From an uncultured Alphaproteobacteria bacterium (GTDB lineage: Bacteria > Pseudomonadota > Alphaproteobacteria > Micavibrionales > Micavibrionaceae), in the NCBI GenBank assembly GCA_937124505.1, contig CAKZKV010000278.1, forward strand, positions 1 to 14,654: a DNA stretch of 14,654 bases. The letters are read 5' to 3'. The notes under the pieces were generated by a model that did not search any database, was not told where the DNA came from, and saw only the letters and a program-made list of their open reading frames with translations. Shown here one piece after another: positions 1,443 through 14,654 of this stretch (its first letter is position 1; each line of letters opens with the position of its first letter). The position numbers and the translations under genes are program-made.

Positions 1443-4400
1443 TTATGAAGATAATGCCTGCCGGAGTTTCTCTTGCCGCTGTTCCTGATAGGTGAGAACA
1501 TCCACAAAAACATCATTGACATCATAATGTCCGGTATGTTCCGGGATATCTTCCTGCAAATCATTCATGTTCCGCAGGAAAGCGACCATTTCACGCAGAT
1601 TGGTGTAGTCTTCTCCCTCCTGTGTCTCTGCTGGAATTTCGCCTGTTCCTTCAGGAAGAAACATATTTGCCTGCACTACACCAGTCGGCAAGACAATGCT
1701 TTGCTCCAGTCCGGGAATGTTCTGTATCTGCTGCGTTGTATATGTGCGAAGAATTTGTTCAAAATCGCCAAGAAGACTTCTACTGTGATTAAAAACATCC
1801 GGATTCAGAAATGTCTGCAAGACACGTTGCGTTTCATGCCCGGATGAAAGATGGAACGGCTCTCTTTCCAGCAGAGGACGGAGATGTGTTTCCGGCTCTA
1901 CGAACCCGTCCAGACCGGCTTCCCTGAGATCATTGACATGAATGGTAAAAGCCCGGTCAAATTGATTGCCGTCCAGATCGGTAACGCGAATGACAATATC
2001 TATTTCCGGTGTTGTCTCAAAATCTATACTGCCCTGTACCAGCAGACTATTTTCATGCAGGACAAAGATATTGTCCGGGTTACTCATCAGGGCATATGTC
2101 ATTACATCACCCGGCAGATCGGGGTCGGCTGCCTCCAGCATACCAACCAGAGTTCCCGCCGCAACGTTTTCCTCAACACTGTCATGGTCAAGCGTCATGC
2201 CTGTCGGTGCCGCATTATCCATCACATTGATCGTAAAGACCCGGTCAAAAGTCCCGCCGTTTCCATCATTCGTCCGGATGGTAACGCTATGGCTGTTTTG
2301 CGCTTCATAATCCAGAACATCATTCAAGACCAGCTTGTCGCCAACCACATCAAACTTGCCATCCGGGTCGGCCAGGATGCTATAAGTAAATGTATCCGAG
2401 GGCAGATCGGCATCCGTTGTCGATAACGTCCCTATCACAGTGCCAATTTCTGTTGTCTCCAGAACAGACGTATGAGAGAGATTTAAAGCCGTGGGAGCAT
2501 CATTCACCGGCGTGACGATAATGCTTAGAGTGTCCGTGTCTGCCCCTGCTCCGTCTTCCAGACCGTCCGCCAGAGAAATATCAAACCCGGCGCTTATTGT
2601 TTCGCTGCCATCATGAACAAAGACTACATCCCCGTCGATAATATCTTGAAGGGTAAAGGTATTTTGAACAATCCCTCCCACTTCAATATGACCGTTTGAC
2701 AAGTTGGAGGCTGTGTAAGTCAACTCCGCAGCATTATCATCGGGATCAACGGCATTCAAATCGGTTGTTGTCAATGTGATGGTTGCCCCTTCATTGACAC
2801 CAAGAGTCAAATCCCCCGTAATGACCGCACCGTCATTTTGCGGCGCAATCGCAATGGAGAATGTATCTGCCGCCAAAGTCGTCGTACCGTCCCGCACCGT
2901 AAAATCAAAAGAATCTGCGATTGTCTCGGTTCCATCATGAACATAGCGCACGCGCTCGGCCTCAATATCCGCAAGCGTAAAACTGCTGATGGCAACACCG
3001 GGATTGGTGGAACGTTCCACGCGACCATGTGAGACATTTGAGGTGATATCAAACACCACTTTACGGGGCTCGGTATCGACATCCGAAGTCGTCAGTTCCA
3101 AAGCGGAAATTGTAACGGTCGCCCCTTCATTGATGCTCAGACCGTTATTTGTCGCTGCGGCAGGTGCATCATCCAGCGGATTGACAACAATATCAAAATG
3201 TCCCGTGTCCGCGACCGTCCCGTCCTCACCGCCATCAGCCAGAGAAATATCAAATCCGGCGGTCAGGCTCTCGCTGCCATCATGAATGTAGGCCACACGG
3301 TTATTATCAATATCATCCTGGGTAAAGGTATTCTGTGCCACACCACCGACTTCAATATGACCGTTTGTGATATTTGATGCGGTAAAGGTCAGTTCCACAC
3401 CGCTATCATCCGGATCGGTACTATTGAGATGGGCGTTCGTAATATTGAATGTGCCGCCTTCATCCATCTCAAGATTCAGGCTGTTTTCATAAAAATTAAC
3501 ATTACGGAAAGACAGGTTGCCTGTTGGGGACGCATCATCATCCAGAACAAATACCAGTTGCGTCATAGGTCCCGTATAATCCAACCCGATCGGAATATCG
3601 AAACGGACCCAGCCATCACCACTTTGATAGGTCCTGAAAGACTGGTCCATCCCGTTCCAGACTTGCGTCCCGTTTAACTGGTAACCATTCACGCCCCCTC
3701 CAAAACCGCTGGCATCGTCAAAACCGATTCCGGCGATTTCCACAATGGAATCCGTCCTGAATTCAAAAGATAAAACGGTATTGGCAGTCAAGGTATAAGG
3801 GAAGTCTACCTTTTTCCATGCATTTCCGCTTAGTGTCAAAACTGTTCCATCAGGACTGACAGTAAACGATGTCGGATCACCGCCCTGACCATCCTGAGAG
3901 GCATCGAACGGATCAATCGTGTAATCGTTAAAATTAATGACATTCGGATCACCATCGTTGACCACCAATGTCGGAGCTTCATTCACCGGCGTAACATTAA
4001 TTGTAAACGTATCCGTGTCAGGCAGCGCGCCATCTTCTCCCCCATCTGCAACCTGAATATCAAACCCGGCAGTCGTTGTTTCGCTATCGTCGTGAACAAA
4101 CGTCACAAGCCCGGCATCCAGATCCGCCTGCGTGAAGGTATTCTGGGTCACGCCACTGACTTGCAGGATGCCATTGGACAGGCTGGAAGCCGCCCAAGTC
4201 AGATCGGCGCCGAAGTCGTCCGGATCAAAGGAATCCAGCATGGTTGTATCGATAACGAGCGTGGTCCCTTCATTCATCGTCGGCGTAGCATTTGTCGCAA
4301 TAACCGGCGCATCATTGACATTATCAACGCTCAGGCTGAATGTATCGGAAACCGTTCCGGCCCCGTCTTCCCCGCCATCCGCAAGTATAAAATCAAATCC

Positions 4401-7400
4401 GGCGGTTGTCGGTGGCCCGCTATGGCGAAATACTAGACGTGAATTATCAATATCGTCCTGTGTGAAGCTAGCAATCGCAACATTCGGGTTGGAAGCCAGT
4501 TCCACCTGCCCGTTTGACGTCCCCGTAACCGTAAAGGTCAACCCCACGCCACTATCATCAGAATCAGCGGCACTCAGGACGGAGTTCTTGATCACGACAA
4601 TGCTGTTCTGGTTTACACTGGCACCGGCATTCACCCCGATCGTTGGCGCATCATTGACATCAAGCTTGTTTAACACAGCAGCGGCTGTTGCCGGAAGCGC
4701 GCCATCTTCTCCGCCATCTGCCACACTGATATCAAACCCTGCATCACCTTCATTTCCATCATGACGGAAAACAACCCGGTTATTTTCCAAATCATTTTGC
4801 GTAAAGCTGATAATCGGCACACCAAGATTTGTCGATAATTCCACAAAACCGTTTATGATTCCCGATAGGGTATAGACGATTCCTGTCGCGCTATCATCCG
4901 GATCGGTCACGTTCAGGTCTGCGGTTGTAACTGTGACCGTCTGCCCTTCGACAACATCAATCACATTATTCGTCGTAATGAGCGGCGCATCGTTGACATC
5001 CGTCTTTGTCACTGTAAAGGTTGCCGTTACTGGAAGCGCTCCGTCTTCCCCGCCATCGGCCAGAGACAAATCAAATCCGCCGTCTCCCTCACTTCCATTA
5101 TGCACAAAGACAACGAGATTATTATTTACATCTGCCTGCGTAAAGGTGTTTTGACTTACACTATTGACCTCAATATGACCGTTGACGAGTGATGTCACCG
5201 TATAAGTCAACTGATCCGGCGTATCAATACTGTCAGGATCACTGCTGTCCAGCATCGCCTGCGTGACCGTCACACTGCCACCTTCTAAAACAGTAGCCCC
5301 CGTGTTCACATCAATGGCAGGAGCCAGGTTGATCAACGTAATATCAACATTGATGACAGTCCCGGAAATCGTATAAGCCCCATCGCTGACGCTAAATTCA
5401 AAACTGTCGCTTGTTGTCTCATACGCATCATGCATATAGACCACACGATCATTCTGAAGATCGTCCAGCGTAAAGCTTGTAATTTGATAGCCCGGATATG
5501 TCGTCAGTTCCAGATGACCATTTGCCGGCCAGGTTGTAAGCCTGAATTGCGTATCAGCGGCAACACCATCCGGATCGGAAATATTCAGGTTGGATGTTGT
5601 CAAAAGTACACTGCCGTCTTCAAGCATTTCCAACGTGTCATCCGTCATGGAAAGCGAGAGTCTATCGTCGAATTTTATAGTAATATCAATTTCCGTAAAC
5701 TTACCACCCACCGTTTCCGTTGCACGGACAGTTAATACATAAGTATCTGTTATGGTCGCATCCAGATTCGTTATATCCAGAATTCTGAGTTCCCCGGTTA
5801 CGGAATCCAGCTCAAAAATGCCGTCCGCATTACCCGCCTCGATTGAAAAGCTCAGGGCATCCCCCTCCGGATCAATACTTTTTACAAAGCCTATGGAATC
5901 TCCCACATTTACATCCGAAGCATCGGGATTAACATGAGACACCAGATACGTGTCATTATTAATCACGTCCCTGCCTTCCCATTCGATGACAGAATGGCGT
6001 GAATTGCCGTTGCCATCGTCATACCAGGAATCATTGTTGTTCATAATGGCGTAATTTGCGCCTGTCCCGCTGTTTGGCTCTGAACCGGCCCACCGATTGT
6101 AGAAGCCACCGTGATCAACATTGCCGCTTTTGGTCAACTGCGTCCCGGCTTCAGGCCCGGCCATCCAGTACCATTCTCCCTCATTCCCGGCATCACTCAG
6201 GGCAATCCAGGCATGCGTCGTGGTCACCGTATCGACAAACGCATTTTCCGCCGCAGAAGTAATAGTGACCAGATGTCCGGCAACACCTTCCAAAAGCTGT
6301 GTTTCTGCATAGGACAACGCATTATCAAACGTGAGATTGGTCGTGACCAATGTATAGAAATTCCCCGTATCGACACTGTAAACGATGCCGCTATATTGTG
6401 TTTCAATAACATCCTCAATATTCAGAAGCGGCGCTTCATTGATATCTGTAATATTGATTGTCACATTCTGGTCTGTATATTTTGACAGATCATTATCATC
6501 CGTCGCCCGAATCGTCAGAACATACTGATTGTAGCGGTCATAATCGAGATTTGCCGTATTGTTGATCTCAATCAGACCCGATGAAGAATTGATCTTGAAA
6601 ATACTGTCCCCGTTTCCGGCAACAATGCTGTAATTTACGCTGTCACTTTCTGCATCGGTTGTAACAATCGTGCCCACATCGTCATTTACAGCCGCATCTT
6701 CAGAAACTATAAACGGCCCGAATGTTGTAAAGACAGGAGCCGTATTCTCAAAAGCATCCTGAATGTTAATTGTCACCGTCTGTTCATCAAACAACAGTCC
6801 CGGCCCGTTATCCGTCGCCCGTACGGTCAATGTGTATGACGTTGTGCCGGATTCATAGTCAATCGTACTGTTATCTGCAACGACAATTTCCCCTGATGAA
6901 GAATCCACCGCAAAAATCCCGGCCCCCGTTCCGCCTGTCACAGAATAGCTCAGACTTTGCCCCGCATCCGGATCACGCGCTTCAACAAAACCGATCAAGT
7001 CGTTATTGGCAGCCAGTTCTGAAACCTGGAATGCGCGCACTGCCCCGGCAGAGCCAACTTCCGCGATACGGATATTATCAATCCCAAATGACTCGTCATT
7101 CAGGTTCGTACTGTTCAGACTACTGCCAAAACCGAGCTTAATATTTGTATCGGTCGTTTTGACCGTCAGGGAGTAGGTTAAAACCTGATCGTAATAGGAG
7201 GCATTATAGGTCAGATATCCCAAACCATCGGTCAGTTCCTGCACACGATAGCTCACATTCCCTGTCTCTCCGTTTGCCTCCGTATCAAATATTGTATAAC
7301 GATAAAGATGACTGTTCAAAACCTGGGTATCATCAATGAACACATAAAAATATTCATTATCCCAGGTGTCGAACTCAAAAAAATCAAATTCGATTGTGAC

Positions 7401-9341
7401 GTAGTCCTGCGTCCCGGACAAAGCAAACGTCTGGTATAATTCCTGATTACCGCTCACATTAATGTTACGGTTAAAACGCCCCCAAAACTCGCTCAACTTG
7501 GAATCTGTAGACGTTGTATTATTATTCCAGCCTGATGTCCCACCTTCAAAGTCTTCATCATAGATAACAGTTTCATTCAACATTGACGGGGCTGTATTCA
7601 CCGTATCGACCCGAATATCAAAGGTTTGTCCAGCAATAGTGTTTGTGCCGTCATACAGACTGAACGTAAACTGATCATCACTACCAATGAGGTTTTGGTA
7701 GGTGACAATTCCCGTATCCAGATCGGCCTGCGTAAATGTATCATTCAAACCCAGAGCAATTCCATCACGATAGAGTGTTCCGAACGAAACATTGCTGGTG
7801 ATCGTATAAATCAGGTCTGCAGCACTATCATCTACATCCGTTGCCACCAGCTTTGTGTTGGCTCCGCCCAGATCAGTCGGAAAATCATAAACGATCAGGG
7901 GACTGTCGATGCTTCCCTGAAAATCCCGTGTACCGCTAACGGACCCGGTATAACCGCCATATGAACCTCCCCCGACAACGCCCAGACCTCCATCATTTCC
8001 CCCGGAAAGGTCTGTCGTATCCGTGAAGCCATTGAGTTGTTCTTCCGGCGTACGGCCAAAAGAAAACCAGTCAAAATCTCCCGCCTGCCTGTAATGCATG
8101 CGGATCTGGTCTGTGTCCTTGTCAATTTCCACAACCACCGCATATTGCGTCGATGTTGCCAGAGGGATAGAAGACGTAAGCTCCGGCGTACCTTCAGCAA
8201 CACCAGCATACCAGGCTAGTTCGTTTGCACTGTTTATATAAAGTCCTATGCCACGCCCGGAACCACCATCTTCAAATAAAACCTGCCCCGGAACCCCTGT
8301 ATGAGAGGTTGAGTCCGTTGTAAAGATCAGAGTGAACATACTGTTCTGGTTGTCAATGAGGGATTGATTGCTGGTATAGGTTCCCACTCCTGTCTCCCTG
8401 TAACGCTCCAATCCAAATTGCGGTGCCTCGCCCCCAATGGAGATCGAAAAACCGAGAGACACGTCCGCGCCGTTATTGGTAACAATCACGGGCGCTTCAT
8501 CCACCGGAGTCACCGTAATGTTAAAATTCTGGTCTGCCGTCGTCTCCGTTCCATCCGTGACAGAAAATGTAAAACTGTCGGATGTTGTTTCCGAGTCATC
8601 ATGCACATATTGCACACGGTTATTATTCAAATCATCCAGCGTGAAGGACGTAATCGCCACGCCTGTATTCGTTGTCAGTTCCAGACGTCCGTTTGTAACC
8701 GTCGTTGAGATATTAAAGGTCACCTCTGTATCCAGATTATCAGGATCGCTCACCCCCAGCATGGCCGGGCTTAAAACCAAGGAATCCCCTTCATTTACGG
8801 TCATCCCTGCATTGGCATCAATCGAAGGAGCCTCATTTTGCGGAACAATCGTAACGTCTACATCTTCCGAGAAATACGCCGCCAGCGCAAAATTAATCGT
8901 CCTGCTGGTTGTTGGGTTATCGGACGTATTCTGATAGGTGATATTCTCAATCACCCTCTCTATTGCCGCCTTGCTGGCATTGACATTCAGATCAACCGTC
9001 AGGTCTGCACCATTCGCCCCGCCAGAAGAGAGCGTCCCGATCAATGTCCCTTCATATGTGACGTTTGCCCCGTCAAATCCGACCTGCCCGGCCCCTGTTC
9101 CCTCATCATGTATGGTTAATTGGTCTTCTGCGCCTCCCGTTGTGGAAATGACCAGGCTGTCCCCTGTAAAGTCTGTCGTTGAGCCACTCACAGAAACATC
9201 ATTATCCAGCACTTGCGGCGTGCTATTCGCATCATTTTCGGCAATCACAGTCGTTGTCGTCAAAGCTCCGAGAGAAGCATCCAGCATCATCCGCTTTTCA
9301 AGTGCCTTGATCGACAATTTTTTACGCCGCAATTCCTTCAT
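1443..9341 (-). CDS. Giant cadherin/CSPG-repeat surface adhesin with lectin-like modules (2632 aa)
   Basis: Predicted very large secreted or surface protein, probably mediating adhesion to glycans or cells. Order seen: basic N-terminus with an LEPR-like motif, LEKRMMLD (14-21); a Ser/Thr/Gly-rich beta domain (~30-168); one CSPG/NG2-type repeat (~170-281); a LamG-like module (~295-492) nested in a second repeat that resumes to ~583; a jelly-roll-like module (~587-764); two cadherin repeats (~765-973); a C-type-lectin-like module (~985-1127); one cadherin repeat (to ~1225); a run of eight CSPG-type repeats (~1229-2280), one carrying a CBM-like insert (~1799-1957); two cadherin repeats (~2281-2472); and a unique 160-residue C-terminus. 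There is no hydrophobic Sec signal, no RTX GGxGxDxxx nonapeptides, no LPXTG or PEP-CTERM tail, and I find no cysteine. The ATG at 9341 is supported by a Shine-Dalgarno and by the LEPR-like motif near the start. It sits directly downstream of an outer-membrane factor and adaptor genes, its likely exporter (inference). Ligand and exact function are unknown. Confidence 0.93.
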   Translation of the reverse strand: MKELRRKKLSIKALEKRMMLDASLGALTTTTVIAENDANSTPQVLDNDVSVSGSTTDFTGDSLVISTTGGAEDQLTIHDEGTGAGQVGFDGANVTYEGTLIGTLSSGGANGADLTVDLNVNASKAAIERVIENITYQNTSDNPTTSRTINFALAAYFSEDVDVTIVPQNEAPSIDANAGMTVNEGDSLVLSPAMLGVSDPDNLDTEVTFNISTTVTNGRLELTTNTGVAITSFTLDDLNNNRVQYVHDDSETTSDSFTFSVTDGTETTADQNFNITVTPVDEAPVIVTNNGADVSLGFSISIGGEAPQFGLERYRETGVGTYTSNQSLIDNQNSMFTLIFTTDSTSHTGVPGQVLFEDGGSGRGIGLYINSANELAWYAGVAEGTPELTSSIPLATSTQYAVVVEIDKDTDQIRMHYRQAGDFDWFSFGRTPEEQLNGFTDTTDLSGGNDGGLGVVGGGSYGGYTGSVSGTRDFQGSIDSPLIVYDFPTDLGGANTKLVATDVDDSAADLIYTITSNVSFGTLYRDGIALGLNDTFTQADLDTGIVTYQNLIGSDDQFTFSLYDGTNTIAGQTFDIRVDTVNTAPSMLNETVIYDEDFEGGTSGWNNNTTSTDSKLSEFWGRFNRNINVSGNQELYQTFALSGTQDYVTIEFDFFEFDTWDNEYFYVFIDDTQVLNSHLYRYTIFDTEANGETGNVSYRVQELTDGLGYLTYNASYYDQVLTYSLTVKTTDTNIKLGFGSSLNSTNLNDESFGIDNIRIAEVGSAGAVRAFQVSELAANNDLIGFVEARDPDAGQSLSYSVTGGTGAGIFAVDSSSGEIVVADNSTIDYESGTTSYTLTVRATDNGPGLLFDEQTVTINIQDAFENTAPVFTTFGPFIVSEDAAVNDDVGTIVTTDAESDSVNYSIVAGNGDSIFKINSSSGLIEINNTANLDYDRYNQYVLTIRATDDNDLSKYTDQNVTINITDINEAPLLNIEDVIETQYSGIVYSVDTGNFYTLVTTNLTFDNALSYAETQLLEGVAGHLVTITSAAENAFVDTVTTTHAWIALSDAGNEGEWYWMAGPEAGTQLTKSGNVDHGGFYNRWAGSEPNSGTGANYAIMNNNDSWYDDGNGNSRHSVIEWEGRDVINNDTYLVSHVNPDASDVNVGDSIGFVKSIDPEGDALSFSIEAGNADGIFELDSVTGELRILDITNLDATITDTYVLTVRATETVGGKFTEIDITIKFDDRLSLSMTDDTLEMLEDGSVLLTTSNLNISDPDGVAADTQFRLTTWPANGHLELTTYPGYQITSFTLDDLQNDRVVYMHDAYETTSDSFEFSVSDGAYTISGTVINVDITLINLAPAIDVNTGATVLEGGSVTVTQAMLDSSDPDSIDTPDQLTYTVTSLVNGHIEVNSVSQNTFTQADVNNNLVVFVHNGSEGDGGFDLSLADGGEDGALPVTATFTVTKTDVNDAPLITTNNVIDVVEGQTVTVTTADLNVTDPDDSATGIVYTLSGIINGFVELSTNLGVPIISFTQNDLENNRVVFRHDGNEGDAGFDISVADGGEDGALPATAAAVLNKLDVNDAPTIGVNAGASVNQNSIVVIKNSVLSAADSDDSGVGLTFTVTGTSNGQVELASNPNVAIASFTQDDIDNSRLVFRHSGPPTTAGFDFILADGGEDGAGTVSDTFSLSVDNVNDAPVIATNATPTMNEGTTLVIDTTMLDSFDPDDFGADLTWAASSLSNGILQVSGVTQNTFTQADLDAGLVTFVHDDSETTTAGFDIQVADGGEDGALPDTDTFTINVTPVNEAPTLVVNDGDPNVINFNDYTIDPFDASQDGQGGDPTSFTVSPDGTVLTLSGNAWKKVDFPYTLTANTVLSFEFRTDSIVEIAGIGFDDASGFGGGVNGYQLNGTQVWNGMDQSFRTYQSGDGWVRFDIPIGLDYTGPMTQLVFVLDDDASPTGNLSFRNVNFYENSLNLEMDEGGTFNITNAHLNSTDPDDSGVELTFTASNITNGHIEVGGVAQNTFTQDDIDNNRVAYIHDGSESLTAGFDISLADGGEDGTVADTGHFDIVVNPLDDAPAAATNNGLSINEGATVTISALELTTSDVDTEPRKVVFDITSNVSHGRVERSTNPGVAISSFTLADIEAERVRYVHDGTETIADSFDFTVRDGTTTLAADTFSIAIAPQNDGAVITGDLTLGVNEGATITLTTTDLNAVDPDDNAAELTYTASNLSNGHIEVGGIVQNTFTLQDIIDGDVVFVHDGSETISAGFDISLADGLEDGAGADTDTLSIIVTPVNDAPTALNLSHTSVLETTEIGTVIGTLSTTDADLPSDTFTYSILADPDGKFDVVGDKLVLNDVLDYEAQNSHSVTIRTNDGNGGTFDRVFTINVMDNAAPTGMTLDHDSVEENVAAGTLVGMLEAADPDLPGDVMTYALMSNPDNIFVLHENSLLVQGSIDFETTPEIDIVIRVTDLDGNQFDRAFTIHVNDLREAGLDGFVEPETHLRPLLEREPFHLSSGHETQRVLQTFLNPDVFNHSRSLLGDFEQILRTYTTQQIQNIPGLEQSIVLPTGVVQANMFLPEGTGEIPAETQEGEDYTNLREMVAFLRNMNDLQEDIPEHTGHYDVNDVFVDVLTYQEQRQEKLRQALSS
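1446..1925 (-). other. Unique C-terminal domain of the adhesin (residues ~2473-2632)
   Basis: After the last cadherin strand the composition changes from beta-rich and acidic to mixed helical: LRPLLEREPFHLSS (2487-2500), ETQRVLQTFLN (2503-2513), SLLGDFEQILRTYTTQQIQN (2522-2541), a VLPTGVVQANMF stretch (2550-2561), NLREMVAFLRNMNDLQEDI (2581-2599) and a terminal helix YQEQRQEKLRQALSS (2618-2632). I do not recognise a family. It lacks RTX repeats and any membrane anchor. Placed like the secretion signal of type 1 cargoes, it may be recognised by the export machine (inference). Confidence 0.55.
1926..2501 (-). repeat. Two C-terminal cadherin repeats (residues ~2281-2472)
   Basis: Two related units, NLSHTSVLETTEIGTVIGTL (2287-2306) and MTLDHDSVEENVAAGTLVGM (2382-2401), each followed by DADLP or DPDLP, a FTYSIL/MTYALM strand, a LDYE/IDFE strand and a final FDRVFTINV / FDRAFTIHV strand. 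This is the cadherin form common at the ends of bacterial giant proteins. Confidence 0.85.
2502..5657 (-). repeat. Array of eight CSPG/NG2-type (Cadherin_3-like) repeats (residues ~1229-2280)
   Basis: Repeats of ~110 residues start near 1229, 1339, 1451, 1565, 1678, 1788, 2058 and 2170. Shared pattern: NxG..VxEG, then LxxxDPDD, then NGHIEV or GxVELxTN, then FTQxDLDNNRVxFVHDGSE, then GFDISLADGGEDG, then a final strand and VNDAP. The sixth repeat carries a ~160-residue insert. At DNA level the repeats are diverged: I see shared short blocks, such as an ~19-nt match around the NGHIEV codons at 2682-2700 and 3352-3370, but no long identity, so they look old rather than freshly duplicated. Likely role is a calcium-stabilised stalk (inference). 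Confidence 0.85.
3471..3947 (-). other. CBM-like insert within the sixth CSPG-type repeat (residues ~1799-1957)
   Basis: The repeat begins NEAPTLVVNDGDPN (1787-1800). An unrelated domain then starts with VINFNDYTIDPFD (1801-1813), runs through LSFEFRTDSIVEIAGIGFDD (1857-1876), GYQLNGTQVW, and GWVRFDIPIGLDYTG (1910-1924), and ends LSFRNVNFYE (1943-1952). The repeat resumes with LEMDEGGTFNIT (1957-1968). The composition, with Trp, Tyr and Asp on predicted strands, suggests a carbohydrate-binding jelly-roll. This is pattern-based only. Confidence 0.5.
5667..5960 (-). repeat. Third cadherin repeat (residues ~1128-1225)
   Basis: After the lectin module: VGDSIGFVKSIDPEGDALSF (1146-1165), GIFELDSVTGELRIL (1174-1188) and TYVLTVRATET (1200-1210) match a cadherin repeat. 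It links the lectin module to the CSPG-type array. Confidence 0.8.
5961..6389 (-). other. C-type-lectin-like module with EPN motif, no cysteines (residues ~985-1127)
   Basis: Features of a C-type lectin fold: YSVDTGNFYTLV opening (988-999), a helix of the LTFDNALSYAE type (1003-1013), HLVTITSAAENAFV (1023-1036), WIALSD (1045-1050), EGEWYWMAG (1054-1062), RWAGSEPN (1083-1090), then SWYDD (1105-1109) and the final strand HSVIEWE (1116-1122). E1088-P1089-N1090 is the calcium/sugar motif associated with mannose-type specificity in this family. SWYDD stands where WND is usual. The disulphide cysteines common in animal lectins are absent, as in many bacterial members. A cadherin repeat follows. Confidence 0.75.
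6423..7049 (-). repeat. Two cadherin repeats (residues ~765-973)
   Basis: Classical cadherin pattern twice: a VSE start, EARDPDAGQSLSYSV (787-801), GIFAVDSSSGEIVV (808-821), LDYE-type strand, YTLTVRATDN (836-845); then TTDAESDSVNYSIV, IFKINSSSGLIEI, LDYDRYNQYVLTIRATD, ending DINEAP (966-971). The Asp/Glu-rich DPD, RATD and DxNEAP positions are the usual calcium-coordinating sites between repeats. Confidence 0.85.
7050..7583 (-). other. Jelly-roll / carbohydrate-binding-like module (residues ~587-764)
   Basis: Aromatic-rich segment starting with YDEDFEGGTSGWNNN (594-608) and ending with ESFGIDNIRIAEVG (750-763). The EDFEGG...GW opening and the FGIDNIRI ending are hallmarks of secreted beta jelly-roll modules that often bind carbohydrate. 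It follows NTAPSM (582-587) and precedes the first cadherin repeat. Ligand is unknown and the family name is uncertain. Confidence 0.45.
7866..8459 (-). other. LamG/ConA-like lectin module nested in a CSPG repeat (residues ~295-492)
   Basis: The segment has the look of a concanavalin A-like beta-sandwich: it opens with alternating beta/Gly residues, continues with GRGIGLYIN (362-370) and ELAWYAG (374-380), then QYAVVVEIDKDTDQIRMHYR (399-418), and closes with SGTRDFQGSIDS (469-480), a typical ending of LamG/Pentraxin-like folds. It interrupts a CSPG-type repeat: the repeat starts at ~282 (DEAPVIVTNNG) and resumes at ~493 (GANTKLVATDVDDS). The fold call is from pattern only. Confidence 0.5.
9279..9302 (-). 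other. N-terminal LEPR-like motif of the adhesin (residues 14-21)
   Basis: LEKRMMLD within the first 21 residues, preceded by a Lys/Arg-rich stretch, is a variant of the LEPRxLL-type motif seen at the extreme N-terminus of many giant repeat proteins of Gram-negative bacteria. Its function is not established. Its fixed N-terminal position and the lack of a Sec signal make it a candidate export or sorting element (inference). Confidence 0.6.
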
Positions 9342-9410
9342 ACAAAAATTCTTTTCCTGTTTTTACCAGTTTAGCGGAATTCCCTTAAAAACTCTTAAAA
9401 TTCAACGTTT
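9342..9410 (-). other. 69-nt gap between outer-membrane factor and adhesin genes
   Basis: AT-rich leader of the adhesin. It contains the adhesin Shine-Dalgarno (separate entry), an EcoRI-type palindrome GGAATTCC and a direct repeat CTTAAAA (plus strand). A TTGAAT hexamer has no TATAAT-like partner at 16-18 nt, so no promoter is called. No terminator hairpin is seen, so read-through from the upstream genes is plausible. Confidence 0.5.
9351..9358 (-). promoter_or_regulatory. Shine-Dalgarno of the adhesin gene
   Basis: AGGAAAAG on the minus strand, 9 nt before the ATG at 9341. It supports this start for the 2632-residue protein. Confidence 0.75.
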
Positions 9411-10835
9411 TTAGCGCCTTGGTAATAAATCACGCCCAAGTGTATTATTCAATGTCGCATAGGCGTCCTGTACATCAATAACATATTGATACAGTTCTAT
9501 TTTTTTGATCTGCGCCTCAACTTCCTGTAAAAAGGCATCCTGCGCGTTCATAAAACCCGCTTTTTCTTTCTGAGCACTGGCAAAGGACAAAAACTGCTCA
9601 TGTTTCTGCATTTTTTTGGCATGGCGATATAAATCACTTAGGTAATCCAGCCTTTGACGCGCCAGATGAACCTGCGTCAATGCGGCCAAAGACAAGGACA
9701 AGCGGCGGGCCTCATCTATTTTCTTCTGGTTCTCCGCATGACGCTTGCGGGAAGGATAAGTCAGCAAGGACACCAGATTTTGCTGAAGCGTCAGCGTGAA
9801 ATTCCCCCACTGGCTTTCACGCAGAAAATCGTTACTGTCCCGGTTCATGGCAAAGAACAACTCCGCCCCCGGAACGGTGCGGATCACTTCTTCACGGATC
9901 GCCTGCGCATTGATATTATCCTGTAAAACCAGTTCCCGCACTTCGGGACGGTTTTTCAGGGCTTCTGCTTCCTGCGCCCGCACATCTTCCGACAAAAGCC
10001 GTGAAATACGCTTTTCATCCCCTTTCAAATCCCCACTGAGTTGAAGGTGGACAGTTTGCGGCAAAGACAACAGGCTTTTCAGTTCCGTTAATGCCAGAGA
10101 TAACTCTCCCTGCTGCGTTTTCAGGGTGGCCAGTGCCGTTTGTATGTCCCGGCTTTTCGAACTGACAATTTCCCCCGACAATAATTGTTTTTGCTGCGCC
10201 CGTTGCAAATTTCGCAAATGTGTGTCCCCCTCCCTGATCAAACGCTCCGAAATTTTTTCAGTTTCCTGCGCCGCCAGAGCACGGAAATAGGCAGAATAAA
10301 TATCCTTTTGAATATTCTGACGGACTTTTTGCAGGCGCTCCTGGGCAATACTGTGCTGCGCTTTTGCTGTTTGTGTTTCAGAAACCGCCAGCAGGATATT
10401 GATCAGGTTCCAGTTCATGCTCAAGTCCTGCACATCCCTGTATTGTTCCGTCGAATAGGAAGGTTCCAGAGATTGCGTATTGGTCAGGATGGAACGGCTG
10501 GACGCAGCGCCCTTGTTTGATCTGCCGATATAGCTGGAAGACAACATCAGAGACGGAAAAGCATTCAGCCGCGCCAGATTGATCTCCTCACCTGCCGCCA
10601 GCGCTTCCAATGCTGCAACCTGTGCATCCAGATTATAATCAACACCGCGCATCAACGCTTCTTGCAAGGAGAGAGTGATCGTTTCTTTCTTCACCTCATC
10701 AAATCCCAGTTTTTTCTGATCCTGTTGCAGCATTTCAATATGCTCTGCCGTATCAAGCCCCGTCTGCGGCGCGACACACGCCGTCAAAAGAAGAGAGGAA
10801 AGTGTTACAGTCAGAAATCCTGGCTTTTTCATCAT
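9411..10835 (-). CDS. TolC/NodT-family outer-membrane factor lipoprotein
   Basis: Predicted trimeric outer-membrane channel with a long periplasmic alpha-barrel that docks on HlyD-type adaptors and lets cargo leave the cell. The chosen start gives 474 residues, usual for the family. N-terminus: MMKKPGFLTV, hydrophobic stretch, then lipobox LLTAC with the acylated cysteine at residue 20. Residues ~53-74 (ITLSLQEALMRGVDYNLDAQ) are the typical opening of an OEP domain. Long Gln/Glu/Arg-rich helices (~152-262), with a second such set in the C-terminal half, form the expected twofold OEP architecture. The frame is open upstream to an ATG at 10874, but that start would put 13 residues before the signal peptide. 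ATG 10835 overlaps the stop of the preceding gene as ATGA, which points to translational coupling. Context places it as the exit duct for the giant adhesin encoded next (inference). Confidence 0.9.
   Translation of the reverse strand: MMKKPGFLTVTLSSLLLTACVAPQTGLDTAEHIEMLQQDQKKLGFDEVKKETITLSLQEALMRGVDYNLDAQVAALEALAAGEEINLARLNAFPSLMLSSSYIGRSNKGAASSRSILTNTQSLEPSYSTEQYRDVQDLSMNWNLINILLAVSETQTAKAQHSIAQERLQKVRQNIQKDIYSAYFRALAAQETEKISERLIREGDTHLRNLQRAQQKQLLSGEIVSSKSRDIQTALATLKTQQGELSLALTELKSLLSLPQTVHLQLSGDLKGDEKRISRLLSEDVRAQEAEALKNRPEVRELVLQDNINAQAIREEVIRTVPGAELFFAMNRDSNDFLRESQWGNFTLTLQQNLVSLLTYPSRKRHAENQKKIDEARRLSLSLAALTQVHLARQRLDYLSDLYRHAKKMQKHEQFLSFASAQKEKAGFMNAQDAFLQEVEAQIKKIELYQYVIDVQDAYATLNNTLGRDLLPRR
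10832..10835 (-). promoter_or_regulatory. ATGA stop/start overlap coupling the protease-adaptor gene to the outer-membrane factor gene
   Basis: The TGA stop at 10834-10832 shares bases with the ATG at 10835-10833. A second in-frame ATG (10832-10830) follows at once. An AGAAAG stretch lies 9 nt before the first ATG. Such an overlap is a hallmark of translational coupling and of fixed stoichiometry between partners. Confidence 0.75.
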
Positions 10836-12949
10836 AAAATTTCGCTTTCTGGTAAGAACAGGGCATACAGCCAATGAAAAAATATACTCACAGGCATTAC
10901 GTTTTCTGCCTTGATCGTGATGATTCCAGATGTAACCTGCAAAAACTCAGGCTCTTTAGGCTCCAAAGTCACCTTGTAAAGACTTTGCCTGGGAACAATG
11001 CGTACCGCTTCATTCCCGCTTTGGAAGAGTTCACTATAGACAGGGCCGCCATAAACCGAGGATACTTCTGCTTTATCCAGATTTGCCACATTGGTTTTTT
11101 CAATACTTTTCACATGCAGCGGCAACGTTTCGATCAAAGAATATGCGGCGCGAAATTCCGCCGGATTGTCCTGATGGATACGCTCGATATCCTGCTCGCT
11201 CACATAGGCTGTTACCAGATTTTGCTGCGAATTGATAACGCGAAATAATAAATCATCAACGGAAACATAACGCCCGTCATGCAGCTCCGGGTTCATATCC
11301 TTGATATAGCCATTAAACGGCGCTTTCACCGTTAACTGCTCACGTTTTTGCTGAAAAGATTTCAATCTGATTTTCAGGTCATCAATCCGGCTCTGCAAAA
11401 GAGCTTGATTTTCACGCAACAAAGCCACATCTGTTTGCTGGCGGCGCATCTGTTTCTCAAGTTCCTCAAGGGAAATCTGCGTCAGTTCATAATCCTTCTC
11501 AAGTTCCGCAGATTCAAGCCGCGCCAGAACCTGCCCTGTCTCGACAAACTTATTTTCTGCAACATTCAATTGCACAAGCTGCGACGGATAAGAGGCATAG
11601 ACATCCCTGTACTCTGCGGCGTGAACCACACCCGGCGCATTCACATGGCCCTGTATCGGCAAAAACAGGAAAATCGAGGCGATGAATGCAATAGCAAAGG
11701 TCATTTTACCGCGTGTATATCTGATAAGGTCTGCCGAGCGGGAAATCCAGACTTTTAGCTCTGACAGAATCGGAAGAACAATAAACCACAGGACTTCAAT
11801 GACCATCAGGATCAGGCCGAATGGCTTGGGGAACAACATATAGACCAGCGCCGCAATCCCGGCAAACAGGAAAAACCTGTAAATCAGCGTTGCCCAGCCA
11901 AAACACACAAGGAAACGCCGCCTCGAGCCGATGGCCGCTTCCGGGCATTCATCCTGCCAGCCAAACAACATTTTTCGCAATCCCCAGCGCGCGCAGGCGA
12001 ACCCGCGCCCATGCAGGTTTTCAATGCCCAAGGCGGCCCCCAGAATAAAGTAGCCGTCAAAACGCATCAGCGGATTCAGGTTAATCAGCAATGACCCCAG
12101 CAGCGAAATCGCCACAACGCTAAAAGCAATACTTTGCAATAGTCCCGGCGCAGCATCATTCCAGACAAGTAAAAAGATGGCCGCCAGCATCAGTTCCAAG
12201 CGAATACCCGCCAGCCCGATTTCGACCTTCTCCCTGCGCCCGGCCAACGCCCAGGCGGAAGTCGTTTCCGTATAAAACACCGGATACATGACCATAAAGG
12301 CAACGCCCATATGCGGCACGTTCAGGCCATATTTGATACATGTATAGGCATGGCCCAGTTCATGCAGCAATTTGATAACCGTAAATACCAGCGCAACCGT
12401 CAAAGCGCCTTCCATACTGAACAGGTTCAAAAATGTCGCCGTAAACTCATCAAGACGGCCAAACGTCATCACCGCGCCATACAGTAACACCAGCAGGGCG
12501 ATCAGACTGGCCTCTTTTGAAAAGAAAAATGCAACATAAGGATAGGTCGCTTCCAGAAATTTCTGCGGCCTGACCAGCGGCAACGAAAAAAACAGGTAGT
12601 TGTGAACCAGCCCGGACAGCAGGGATTTTGTTTCCTTGGCAGGCGGTGTTAAAGGCAACCCTTCCACAGGCCTGATCAGGCCATGCCGGTTCAAAAACAA
12701 CAAAAGTTCTTTAAACCTTTCTTCGTCAGGTTCCAGCGTTGTCTCCCGGCGCAATTTATCCGCCAGTTCCCGATAAGTTGTACACAACGAAAAGCGGGAG
12801 AGGTATTCAAATTCTTCCCAACCCAGATGAAAATATTGATGGGAAACAGGGTGATACAAGCGCCAGTTCGGCGTTCCGTCCTCCGCTGCGCTCCCCTTCA
12901 CCAGTTTCAAATCAGGATTCAAGCGGGGAATTTTTGTGTCCGGGGTCAT
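10832..12949 (-). CDS. PqqD-like + M50 zinc metalloprotease + HlyD adaptor fusion protein
   Basis: Inner-membrane protein of 705 residues from the chosen start. Seen in order: N-terminal PqqD-like winged-helix region (~10-95, with NWRLYHPVSHQYFHLGWEEF); then about eight hydrophobic membrane segments (~145-432). These contain the zinc motif HELGH (196-200; H196, E197, H200) and the third-ligand motif NPLMRFDGY (292-300; D298), both intact, as in site-2-type M50 proteases. The C-terminal half (~438-705) is a periplasmic HlyD adaptor: lipoyl half (VQLNVAENKFVETGQVLARL), charged coiled-coil hairpin (~480-540), second lipoyl half (VKAPFNGYIKDMNPELHDG) and beta-barrel. Family knowledge: such M50-HlyD fusions are annotated as peptide zinc metalloproteases, mostly uncharacterised. 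Its place beside an outer-membrane factor suggests it forms or controls the inner-membrane part of an exporter, or processes the cargo. An ATG at 12964 would add five residues, but ATG 12949 has the better ribosome binding site. Confidence 0.9.
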   Translation of the reverse strand: MTPDTKIPRLNPDLKLVKGSAAEDGTPNWRLYHPVSHQYFHLGWEEFEYLSRFSLCTTYRELADKLRRETTLEPDEERFKELLLFLNRHGLIRPVEGLPLTPPAKETKSLLSGLVHNYLFFSLPLVRPQKFLEATYPYVAFFFSKEASLIALLVLLYGAVMTFGRLDEFTATFLNLFSMEGALTVALVFTVIKLLHELGHAYTCIKYGLNVPHMGVAFMVMYPVFYTETTSAWALAGRREKVEIGLAGIRLELMLAAIFLLVWNDAAPGLLQSIAFSVVAISLLGSLLINLNPLMRFDGYFILGAALGIENLHGRGFACARWGLRKMLFGWQDECPEAAIGSRRRFLVCFGWATLIYRFFLFAGIAALVYMLFPKPFGLILMVIEVLWFIVLPILSELKVWISRSADLIRYTRGKMTFAIAFIASIFLFLPIQGHVNAPGVVHAAEYRDVYASYPSQLVQLNVAENKFVETGQVLARLESAELEKDYELTQISLEELEKQMRRQQTDVALLRENQALLQSRIDDLKIRLKSFQQKREQLTVKAPFNGYIKDMNPELHDGRYVSVDDLLFRVINSQQNLVTAYVSEQDIERIHQDNPAEFRAAYSLIETLPLHVKSIEKTNVANLDKAEVSSVYGGPVYSELFQSGNEAVRIVPRQSLYKVTLEPKEPEFLQVTSGIITIKAENVMPVSIFFHWLYALFLPESEIL

Positions 12950-12956
12950 CTCAAAT

Positions 12957-12960
12957 TCCT
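12957..12960 (-). promoter_or_regulatory. Shine-Dalgarno deciding the start of the M50-HlyD gene
   Basis: AGGA lies 7 nt before ATG 12949. For the alternative ATG at 12964, directly abutting the preceding TAG stop, the only G-rich stretch ends 3 nt upstream, which is too close. The internal ATG is therefore preferred. Confidence 0.55.
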
Positions 12961-12964
12961 GCAT

Positions 12965-14275
12965 CTACACCCCCGCCATGTTACGCAGGGCAATCAGGGG
13001 CCGCCGCAAAATCCGGTATCCCAAAACGCTCCAGTCTCCCCTGATTTTCGCCACGCCCTTCCAGCCGATGCGGATGCCTTGTGCCTTTTCTGAAAAGCCT
13101 GCGCGGATTTTGTAACTCAGCAGCCCATCGGAATCCTTGCTTGCCTGATAGCCGATTGATTGAATATCAGCGGCATAATTGCGAAGCGGCGCGGCATTTG
13201 GAAAAAAAGAAACAGTGGATGTTTTGTCAACGGGGATGATGGCCTGTAGAGGGACACGAACCAGCAATTCCGTCTGCTCCGGGTCAGCAATCTGCATGAT
13301 GGTCTGCCCGGTTTGCACAGGTTTTTCACGGAAATCATTCACATCGGCAAAAATCGCCACACCGTCCCGCGGCGCCCGGATCTCCGCCTTCTGCAACTGG
13401 CTTTGCGCATAAGACGCCTCAATCTCTTTGGCCTTGATATCCGCCAATACTTTCCCCAATTCTGCTTTTCGTTCCGGATTTTGCAGCACCTCCCTGTTCA
13501 GTTGAGAGAGTTTGGCCTCCGCCGCGCGCAAGGCCTCCATCGCCGTATCGGCCTGCAGGGCAAGCGCCTGCACGTCCATGCGGGCGATCACCTCCCCTTC
13601 CTTCACACGCGCGCCGGGACGAACGGAAATATCTTTCAAAACACCGTCAAAGGGGATGCTCACCGTTTGGGAGGAGACCGCGACCACTTCCGCAGGCGCG
13701 GTGATCACCAATCTGACAGGCACAAACAGCAGGAGAATAAGAACCGCCCATATGTATTTTTTGTAAGAACGCATCCGCTCGGACAGCGGTAAAAAATCAC
13801 GTTTGTTGATACCCCGGCTGAGGAACAGTGCGCGTGTATAGTAAAACGCCAGTTCTTCGAGGATGTGTTTCTCCCCGTCTTCAAACTCTGTTTCCCGCTC
13901 AATCCAGAGCCCGCCGATGATGTCATTCTGTTCCCCATAACGGAACACAACCAGCATTACACAAGGCGCAACGCCCTCGGCTTCTTTTTCGTTGTCTGCT
14001 TGTGAAATCTCGCAGGACATCTGATCGCCCCCCAGCGCCTTAATCTCCTTCAAAATTTTCTGCTGTATCCAGAGCGCATGCGGCCCGTTTTCATCTATGA
14101 GCGCATTGCCGGATACATTCTGAAGGCGGATGCGGTGCTTCCCCGTCCAGAAAACGGCGCGGCGGTAATCAACAAGCTTTTTCGTGGCATTGACTGCATG
14201 GAATCCCAGCTCATTTTCAGATGCGGCTTCCATGGCCTGCCTCTGGATCTGCAGGAGCCGTAACGCCTTATCCAT
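12965..14275 (-). CDS. GAF-like domain fused to an HlyD-family periplasmic adaptor
   Basis: A 436-residue single-pass inner-membrane protein. Residues ~1-155 look like a cytosolic GAF-type sensor: a leading helix, a beta-strand with RRAVFWTG (38-45), a central strand CVMLVVFRYG (105-114), then DIIGGLWIER (118-127), FEDGEKHILEELAFYYTRAL (131-150). A membrane helix spans ~174-192 (IWAVLILLLFVPVRLVI). The periplasmic part has a lipoyl half-motif (FDGVLKDISVRPGARVKEGE, 209-228), an Ala/Glu/Gln-rich hairpin (~236-295), the second lipoyl half (IRAPRDGVAIFADVND, 299-314) and a beta-barrel. Its start overlaps the previous gene by 8 nt and its TAG stop is 15 nt before the M50-HlyD start. A cytosolic sensor on an adaptor could link export to an intracellular signal, but the ligand is unknown and the GAF call rests on pattern only. 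Confidence 0.85.
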   Translation of the reverse strand: MDKALRLLQIQRQAMEAASENELGFHAVNATKKLVDYRRAVFWTGKHRIRLQNVSGNALIDENGPHALWIQQKILKEIKALGGDQMSCEISQADNEKEAEGVAPCVMLVVFRYGEQNDIIGGLWIERETEFEDGEKHILEELAFYYTRALFLSRGINKRDFLPLSERMRSYKKYIWAVLILLLFVPVRLVITAPAEVVAVSSQTVSIPFDGVLKDISVRPGARVKEGEVIARMDVQALALQADTAMEALRAAEAKLSQLNREVLQNPERKAELGKVLADIKAKEIEASYAQSQLQKAEIRAPRDGVAIFADVNDFREKPVQTGQTIMQIADPEQTELLVRVPLQAIIPVDKTSTVSFFPNAAPLRNYAADIQSIGYQASKDSDGLLSYKIRAGFSEKAQGIRIGWKGVAKIRGDWSVLGYRILRRPLIALRNMAGV

Positions 14276-14654
14276 CTTCCAGCCCTCTCAGGGCATAAGA
14301 CAAGCCACGCATATGACGGGATACCTGCGAATCCTCATAACCCGCCGCCTGACGTTTTCCTTCCAGATACCCCCGGATGCCTGCCTGTCTGATATCAGAT
14401 GCATTTAATACAACCAGGCCGCTCATCCCCGGTAAAAGCGGATCGTCATAATCAGACAACCGCGCACTCATCTGGATAGACTGACTGACCGGGTCAACCT
14501 CTCCATATATCCTGATGATCTTTGCCTGATATGTCTGTTCCGTTTCATTAATACGCATCGTCAGCGGCGCCCCGACATTCAGATAACGCAGCCATTTGGA
14601 CGGCACGATAAATTCAACTTCCAGCTCATTACGGGACGCAATTTCCATCAAAAC
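14268..14654 (-). CDS. Periplasmic adaptor (RND/HlyD type), C-terminal part only
   Basis: The frame is open to the right edge, so the 5' part is missing; 128 residues are visible. They match the beta-barrel and membrane-proximal end of a membrane-fusion protein: LMEIASRNELEVEFIVPSKW (the strand following the second lipoyl half), LNVGAPLTMRINETEQTYQA, AKIIRIYGEVDPVSQSIQMS (the typical I-x-P-x-V/D-P-xSQ-type strand pair), and LLPGMSGLVVL, the near-universal L-x-PGM ending. The last ~30 residues are a polar tail. It is the first visible gene of the cluster and probably a third adaptor of the same export system (inference). It could instead belong to a separate RND pump whose transporter lies further upstream. 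Confidence 0.88.
   Translation of the reverse strand, partial: VLMEIASRNELEVEFIVPSKWLRYLNVGAPLTMRINETEQTYQAKIIRIYGEVDPVSQSIQMSARLSDYDDPLLPGMSGLVVLNASDIRQAGIRGYLEGKRQAAGYEDSQVSRHMRGLSYALRGLEDG
14284..14289 (-). promoter_or_regulatory. Shine-Dalgarno of the GAF-HlyD gene
   Basis: GAGAGG lies 8 nt before the ATG at 14275, inside the end of the preceding coding region. The overlap (stop TAA at 14270-14268) implies coupled translation. Confidence 0.6.

Follow-up and report, generated by a model that had tools for sequence, protein, structure and literature searches.

A Conserved Gene Cluster with an M50–HlyD Fusion Is a Candidate Export Machine for LEPR-Tagged Giant Surface Proteins

Introduction

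How does a giant surface protein leave the cell when the genes beside it encode adaptors, a membrane protease, and an outer membrane channel, and no ATPase? This question is raised by contig CAKZKV010000278.1 (C278; 14,654 nucleotides), analyzed here in its entirety as "the window," from the draft genome (G000; 2.02 Mb, 96.6% complete) of an uncultured alphaproteobacterium of the Micavibrionaceae. The window encodes two periplasmic adaptors, a protein in which an M50 protease is fused to an HlyD-type adaptor ("the fusion"), a TolC/OprM-type outer-membrane factor (OMF), and a giant protein with a short N-terminal tag of the LEPR type; none of its genes encodes an ATPase. We consider it moderately probable that the first four genes form a dedicated export machine for such giants, the cargo. 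Proteins with LEPR-XLL and DUF4347 segments are widespread, with open frames reaching 19,427 residues, and a tag tied to one machine would provide them with a testable exporter.

Co-occurrence of the Tag and the Fusion

The fusion exists in two types, that of the window (type 1) and a sister type described below. Sixteen of the 58 order genomes encode the fusion (at least 389 bits); the tag (E ≤ 2e-5) occurs in 15, each of which is among the 16. None of the 42 genomes without a fusion has the tag, and the next tag match (E 0.029) lies in a frame of 124 residues. The sole genome of the order with a fusion and no tag, G031, has a contig end inside its fusion gene. In 200 genomes of the phylum, that of the window included, 64 of the 67 that encode a type 1 fusion also have the tag, as does 1 of the 133 others; since the genomes are related, the Fisher p values (5e-13 for the order, 2e-47 for the phylum) overstate the association. 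Counted by genus, a fusion of either type is found in 38 of 110 and the tag in 31 of 110. The three genomes with a type 1 fusion and no match to our tag profile are G101, G176, and G216. The preliminary description of this DNA had proposed looking for co-occurrence of LEPR-type giants with the machine, and at both taxonomic levels the two track each other almost one to one. It should be noted that in two genomes of the order (G049 and G050) the cargo is encoded on a different contig from the machine, which itself sits well inside its contig, so that the link is more than gene proximity.

The tag profile used here (A3) comprises 32 rows, two available pieces being left out, with sources in the order, Pseudomonas, Nitrospira, Rhizobiales, Azospirillum, Desulfobacteraceae, and others; L14, E15, R17, and D21 are invariant in all 32 cargo proteins. 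A similar picture was obtained with the independent NCBI model LEPR-8K (LEPR-XLL; NF012209). At 20 bits or more in frames of at least 600 residues it recovers 37 genomes, 36 of which have a fusion by A1 (an alignment of 16 type 1 fusions from 15 genomes, the partial G031 protein left out); in the remaining genome the sister profile A5 detects one. At 17 bits or more it recovers 58 genomes, 56 of them with a fusion, the two without being G115 and G276. Twelve genomes with LEPR-8K matches in frames below 600 residues alone were dropped (five with a fusion, seven without). The thresholds of 1e-110, 695 bits, and 600 residues were chosen after the scores had been seen.

Gene Content of the Window

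The genes and segments in question, all on the minus strand, are as follows, in order of transcription.

14268..14654, minus: RND-type periplasmic adaptor (MFP1), last 128 residues only, the contig ending inside the gene; HlyD_3 and RND_mfp matches
12965..14275, minus: GAF-like/HlyD adaptor, 436 residues; HlyD match, one transmembrane (TM) segment at residues 175–193
10832..12964, minus: PqqD-like/M50/HlyD fusion, 710 residues; by Pfam, NCBIfam, alignment A1, and AlphaFold2
12665..12931, minus: PqqD/RRE-like N-terminal domain of the fusion, residues ~12–100; three strands then three helices in the predicted structure
12350..12364, minus: HELGH zinc-protease motif of the fusion, residues 201–205; alignment A1
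12053..12076, minus: NPLMRFDG, second M50 motif of the fusion, residues 297–304, D303 invariant in A1
10895..11659, minus: HlyD/MacA-like part of the fusion, residues ~436–690; Pfam, predicted structure, and profile comparison
9411..10874, minus: TolC/OprM-type outer-membrane lipoprotein (OMF); OEP/TolC-type match, lipobox LTAC
1443..9341, minus: giant cadherin-like cargo, 2632 residues; 10 Cadherin_3 stretches, C-type lectin stretch at residues 1021–1114
9276..9302, minus: LEPR-type N-terminal tag LEKRMMLDA of the giant, residues 14–22; NF012209 and A3 profiles
1446..1523, minus: C-terminal segment of the giant, residues 2607–2632; similar in many Micavibrio cargo giants

The five tightly packed genes reported in the preliminary description are all present, head to tail, and recur as a set in relatives. 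The RND-type and HlyD adaptor genes overlap by 8 bp and those of the fusion and OMF by 43 bp; there is no gap between the HlyD adaptor and the fusion, and one of 69 bp between the OMF and the giant. Gene calls and Pfam show no RND, MFS, or MacB inner-membrane pump gene in the window.

The RND-type adaptor is confirmed, from its C-terminal 128 residues only, by HlyD_3 (44.7 bits), its RND_mfp score of 41.7 bits falling below the cut-off of 94.9. The TolC-type lipoprotein likewise agrees with the first description, by its family match and lipobox; its true start probably lies inside the open reading frame listed, the TTG start called being in all likelihood too early. For the second adaptor, described earlier as GAF-HlyD, the HlyD part stands. 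Pfam GAF is not seen in the window protein, and GAF_2 matches 1 of 15 family members (E 0.038), yet the family profile aligns with sister-type proteins, and both of the two sister proteins scanned exceed the GAF cut-off.

The giant, a 2632-residue cargo-like protein in the preliminary description, is indeed cadherin-like and LEPR-tagged. Its tag, LEKRMMLDAS, is a variant of LEPR-XLL, scoring 52.8 bits against A3 (which includes its own row) and 12.5 bits against NF012209, below the cut-off of 17; all three distant cargo pieces compared with NF012209 exceed that cut-off (17.4–21 bits). The giant contains no cysteine, no GGxGxD motif, no RTX repeats, and no TM-like segment in a 19-residue hydropathy window. 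DUF4347 was not found in it by Pfam and follows the tag in 9 of 10 distant cargo pieces scanned, 2 of the 10 (L100 and L132) having RTX repeats after the tag region. The C-terminus of many Micavibrio cargo giants is a helix-like segment resembling FxDVxTYHExRxxxLRxAL, which is possibly a retention or anchoring signal.

The preliminary description had also suggested an ATPase gene just beyond position 14654. In G001, a complete genome of the same genus (three contigs, rated 100% complete), these five genes recur in this order. The RND-type adaptor, 419 residues at full length, is the first gene of that cluster, and upstream of it lie a MatE transporter and then a purL-like gene; if synteny holds, the contig end of the window therefore hides no ATPase, and this proposal was dropped. 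At the other end, glpD (window 2–1384) follows the giant immediately, as it does in G001, indicating that synteny is kept within the genus.

Conservation of the Cluster in Relatives

From at least 577 confirmed relatives of the fusion we kept 80 loci, some of which are also in the order and phylum genome sets. The gene set recurs across the Proteobacteria and Nitrospira; among the matches listed, those with a name that stand nearest to the fusion come from Micavibrio and further alphaproteobacterial metagenome-assembled genomes, which makes a Micavibrio-like host most likely. All 75 loci with at least 1.5 kb upstream have the HlyD partner on the strand of the fusion (a test of strand, not of distance), and where the flank is sufficient the RND adaptor is present in 63 of 65 loci and the OMF in 57 of 64. 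This is the conserved linkage that the preliminary description would lead one to expect. The tag itself is visible in 28 of the 80 loci; elsewhere the frame of the giant often leaves the fetched stretch, or the contig ends.

No ABC (ATP-binding cassette) protein of the kind found in type 1 secretion systems (T1SS) was detected in any of the 80 loci with a profile from the two such proteins of G000. Clustering revealed 11 generic ABC-like proteins in 9 loci. At L062, L064, and L095 the ABC, presumably a LolD/MacB-like pair, lies further upstream, separated from the operon by what we take to be glycyl-tRNA-synthetase-like genes; at L040 what we assume to be an RND-like pair lies some kilobases away. 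The ABC-like proteins were set aside as a motor, none being a direct same-strand neighbor in a Walker-A scan of the 80 operons. That scan, which covered same-strand neighbors within 400/600 bp and relied on simple gene calls that are faulty in places in GC-rich loci, gave four regular-expression matches; three of these fall in frames of the cargo side that are large or cut, and the fourth in a 223-residue kinase-like gene at a single locus. SecA was found in 1 of the 80 loci, L092; the protein (907 residues) has SecA_SW and SEC-C, which mark the housekeeping kind, and was likewise rejected as a cluster motor. One contig (G025:C7) holds at 14100–19513 a second, divergent M50–HlyD cluster (L054) followed by a 583-residue gene of unknown kind, not a giant, and about 7 kb from this cluster a tagged frame of 944 residues.

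Domain Structure of the Fusion

The M50 assignment of the fusion comes from its motifs, the Pfam M50 score (21.5 bits) lying below the cut-off of 27.2. The best curated model is NCBIfam daptide_HExxH, a daptide intramembrane metalloprotease (146.7 bits over residues 38–396, with the cut-off of 300 unmet). HExxH and the distal aspartate are invariant in all 16 proteins of A1, and the M50 catalytic residues also in all 19 sister-type proteins of A5. An AlphaFold2 model (mean predicted local distance difference test [pLDDT] 82.9; predicted TM-score [pTM] 0.60) shows an N-terminal domain of three strands and three helices, a membrane-helix bundle that bears HELGH in one of its early helices, and a MacA/MexA-like part; in both fold and sequence the HlyD portion is nearest to MacA/EmrA/MexA-type adaptors. 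Judged by the number of predicted helices, the N-terminal domain would be cytosolic and the HlyD part periplasmic. The N-terminal domain looks, by a weak match, like PqqD or a RiPP recognition element (RRE), the leader-binding fold of ribosomally synthesized and post-translationally modified peptide (RiPP) pathways.

A Sister Type with a SecA-like ATPase

Phylogenetic analysis separates 78 type 1 proteins from 19 sister-type proteins with a support of 0.92, and the two types also differ in their surroundings. Some genomes encode a second SecA-like gene of about 660 residues, the sister cluster being ordered GAF-HlyD, M50–HlyD, SecA-like, then a membrane fusion protein or the giant. In the 200 phylum genomes we found 44 sister fusions in 32 genomes, and a SecA-like gene (at least 695 bits) lies directly downstream on the same strand in 35 of the 44 (gap −36 to 164 bp, one 957). 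Conversely, 35 of the 37 SecA-like genes at this score sit directly downstream of a sister fusion. Counted per genome, the SecA-like gene and a sister fusion occur together in 28, out of 29 genomes with the former and 32 with the latter. Of the nine sister fusions not counted as adjacent, three (L160, L165, and L170) are followed by a SecA-like frame of lower score, and at least one reaches its contig end; below 695 bits, SecA-like genes merge with housekeeping SecA in the score list. Beside type 1 fusions a SecA-like gene was found in 0 of 123 checked; the check took in fusions of at least 534 bits and omitted five rows at 457–508 bits as well as the window itself. The SecA-like gene thus accompanies the second type alone.

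In the SecA-like proteins the SecA_DEAD, P-loop, and preprotein-binding domains are present. All 15 aligned sequences share the same Walker A and B motifs, and the GRCGRQGDPG-type motif is largely kept; the wing/scaffold and SEC-C were found in none of eight scanned, and one housekeeping control has both. (Alignment A4 holds 15 of 17 SecA-like proteins, A7 16 of 17, and A5 the 19 sister-type fusions.) The cargo differs as well: the tag closes with S[AG] in each of eight sister cargo starts, of which five read LE[DE]R[IV]L[LM]SA[DE], whereas type 1 has D[AG]. In profile searches G000 and G001 each gave a single SecA match, with no second SecA in the genome of the window. Weak SecA_DEAD matches, below or near the cut-off, recur in many genomes in long frames, of about 1165–1210 and 690–730 residues; these are probably other helicases, such as Mfd and RecG.

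Proposed Mechanism and Alternatives

The cluster resembles a tripartite exporter that spans the envelope and includes a RiPP-like module for recognition and proteolysis. In the route we propose, a giant surface protein would bear a short N-terminal tag (here LEKRMMLDAS), to which the cytosolic PqqD/RRE-like domain of the fusion would bind. The M50 membrane part would act as a gate, might clip the tag, and would pass the unfolded chain into a periplasmic tube formed by the three HlyD/RND-type adaptor parts. The lipoprotein OMF would then conduct the giant outward across the outer membrane, where it would remain displayed. The preliminary description had suggested that the M50 protein replaces or supplements the ABC component; M50 proteins are not ATPases, and in the sister type a separate gene encodes the SecA-like protein. 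As the energy source we favor a SecA-family motor, because a SecA-like protein is the sole ATPase that recurs inside these clusters: The sister type would use its own SecA-like gene and, by analogy, the type of the window would most likely depend on housekeeping SecA. The SecA-like gene of the sister type gives the question of energy a concrete form. Proton motive force or an ABC transporter in trans may alternatively supply the energy.

Several observations weigh against this route. Type 1 has no motor of its own, a gap that the SecA idea bridges by analogy. Cargo adjacent to the machine supplied the A3 profile, and the 200 genomes, from 110 genera, are related to one another. Loci exist with long flanks on both sides and no giant, for example, L082, L126, and L133. 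At L070 (Thiotrichaceae; 4438–13248) a frame of 2937 residues about 1.1 kb downstream of a type 1 fusion lacks the tag; its start appears signal-peptide-like, which would fit either an unrelated protein or cargo using another entry route. At L178 (Magnetospirillum pMSR-1; 8502–16088) a protein with ELWxxDGT repeats stands beside the machine without a LEPR tag at its annotated start; we therefore dropped pMSR-1 as a tagged example, and the protein may be truncated or a different cargo. For leader recognition the evidence points both ways. Of the PqqD-M50-HlyD architecture first described, the M50 motifs and the HlyD part hold; Pfam PqqD at E ≤ 1 is found in 0 of the 16 type 1 fusions of A1, but in 5 of 19 sister-type fusions (best E 1.3e-4), and hhalign aligns the two types nearly end to end, N-terminal domain covered (E 2e-88). 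Foldseek with the N-terminal domain alone puts RiPP leader-binding proteins at the top, a sactipeptide enzyme and lasso-peptide B1 proteins making up 9 of the 12 best matches, at E 0.13–0.37 with none at or below 0.001 and from a single-sequence model of pLDDT 61. The N-terminal profile gave nothing meaningful against PDB sequences.

Could a canonical T1SS ABC transporter encoded elsewhere energize the set in trans, with M50–HlyD, GAF-HlyD, and OMF as extra parts of the conduit? G000 does encode two LssB-type ABC genes over the cut-off, on contigs C296 and C106, and in the 44 of 58 order genomes covered by the ABC and SecA family searches, an LssB-type ABC is present in 42, including all 16 that bear the machine, which also counts against our own proposal. 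These 42 genomes have such an ABC with or without the machine, so the order does not discriminate. The C296 gene adjoins the end of another giant, one with RTX repeats; we take another neighbor to be OMF-like and those of the C106 gene to be OMF- and HlyD-like. The preliminary description had considered a complete ABC operon for this adhesin elsewhere to speak against its proposal: The ABC genes exist, but we saw nothing tying either to the adhesin of the window. Against an ABC in trans stand the lack of any T1SS-type ABC in the 80 loci, the absence of GGxGxD repeats from the giant, and the N-terminal position of the conserved tag. In addition, 7 of 30 distant machine-bearing genomes (G062, G063, G068, G070, G071, G073, and G080) have no ABC over the cut-off in the LssB, PrtD, or HlyB families, a finding that supports independence from such transporters and does not decide it, the completeness of the seven not being given. 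We regard an ABC in trans as quite unlikely.

Ordinary SecYEG and SecA could instead take the giant across the inner membrane, leaving the outer membrane step, tag removal, and surface retention to the cluster. The single SecA in each of G000 and G001, the SecA relative retained in the sister type, and the suitability of adaptors and OMF for an outer step are all consistent with this. A TM-like stretch (19-residue window, mean hydropathy at least 1.6) is however absent from the first 100 residues of all 35 tagged giants, four duplicate loci left out, although a short signal-peptide core could be overlooked by this test, a limit that also weakens our own proposal; a cytosolic leader-binding domain would have little role after Sec, and the eight sister SecA-like proteins scanned lack the wing/scaffold match that the housekeeping control has. 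We judge the Sec route unlikely. The cluster might, lastly, be a processing or anchoring apparatus, an intramembrane protease with a scaffold, for giants exported by another, unlinked route. The invariant M50 catalytic residues in both types (16/16 and 19/19) and a RiPP-maturation protease as the nearest NCBIfam model would suit it, but an OMF and three HlyD-type parts suggest a conduit across the envelope over a scaffold; the unlinked exporters sought were T1SS ABC and SecA only. This we consider very improbable.

The export machine proposed above also admits a bolder, rather doubtful version, in which it is a separate class of secretion system: A site-2-protease-type domain with its own RRE domain, fused to an adaptor, would be the inner-membrane gate or channel, with each of the two types reading a tag code of its own. 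The type for D[AG] would have no dedicated motor, and that for S[AG] would be driven by the shortened SecA. Lacking the wing/scaffold, this SecA may accordingly feed cargo to the M50 protein and not to SecY.

Comparison with Known Systems

The cluster shares with type 1 secretion (HlyB-HlyD-TolC; LapBCE-type) the HlyD-type adaptors, a TolC-type OMF, and a giant repetitive surface cargo encoded beside the export genes. It differs in the conserved N-terminal tag, the three adaptor parts, the M50 protein fused to one of them, and the missing T1SS-type ABC, in the window and the G001 locus as in the 80 loci; on the ABC criterion, the cluster as tested here does not qualify as a T1SS. The resemblance of the HlyD part to MacA/EmrA/MexA-type adaptors links it to the MacAB, AcrAB, and EmrAB tripartite pumps, whereas the window has no RND, MFS, or MacB gene and the linked gene encodes a giant. 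With daptide/epipeptide maturation by PqqD-M50 metalloproteases and RREs it has in common daptide_HExxH as the best match to the PqqD-M50 half and the weak RRE-like fold matches; unlike them, the fusion scores below the model cut-off, is joined to HlyD, and is linked to a giant, not a peptide. A second SecA-like ATPase recalls accessory Sec (SecA2), but only in the sister type (0 of 123 type 1 loci), in a form without wing/scaffold and SEC-C; a second SecY was not searched for. Among LEPR-XLL/DUF4347 giants, the distant cargo pieces are typical by NF012209 and DUF4347; that of the window falls below the model cut-off and lacks Pfam DUF4347, yet has the L-E-x-R core with D and A following.

A description of such an exporter was not found in the open-access literature, subscription papers and preprints being mostly outside the search, so that a prior description is possible; nor did any title or abstract opening in the open-access literature searched concern export of LEPR-XLL/DUF4347 giants. 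The genome paper of Micavibrio aeruginosavorus (PMC3189940) describes T1SS and RTX proteins, and its main text uses neither "giant" nor "cadherin." Passages from the first part of a review of tripartite systems (PMC8277102) contain no such system, and the sections seen of PMC12502724 and PMC3482391 are unrelated to the exporter.

Occurrence in Tractable Bacteria

The system is also present in tractable bacteria. Azospirillum brasilense Sp7 encodes consecutively the cargo (N-terminus MALEPRFMFDAAGAV, with DUF4347), TolC, the RND adaptor, HlyD, and M50–HlyD. The same five genes are found on an Escherichia coli plasmid, where the cargo starts ...ALESRQLFDGAAL and has DUF4347. On this type of replicon, L177 (NZ_CP081687.1, 1–18073; E. 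coli plasmid) is a type 1 cluster with a DUF4347/Ig-like giant of 4459 residues, its fusion annotated solely as "HlyD family efflux transporter periplasmic adaptor subunit." A near-identity DNA search of 5426 E. coli genomes found the cluster in 24; of its 25 places, 21 are on plasmids, and Citrobacter plasmids also match the fusion.

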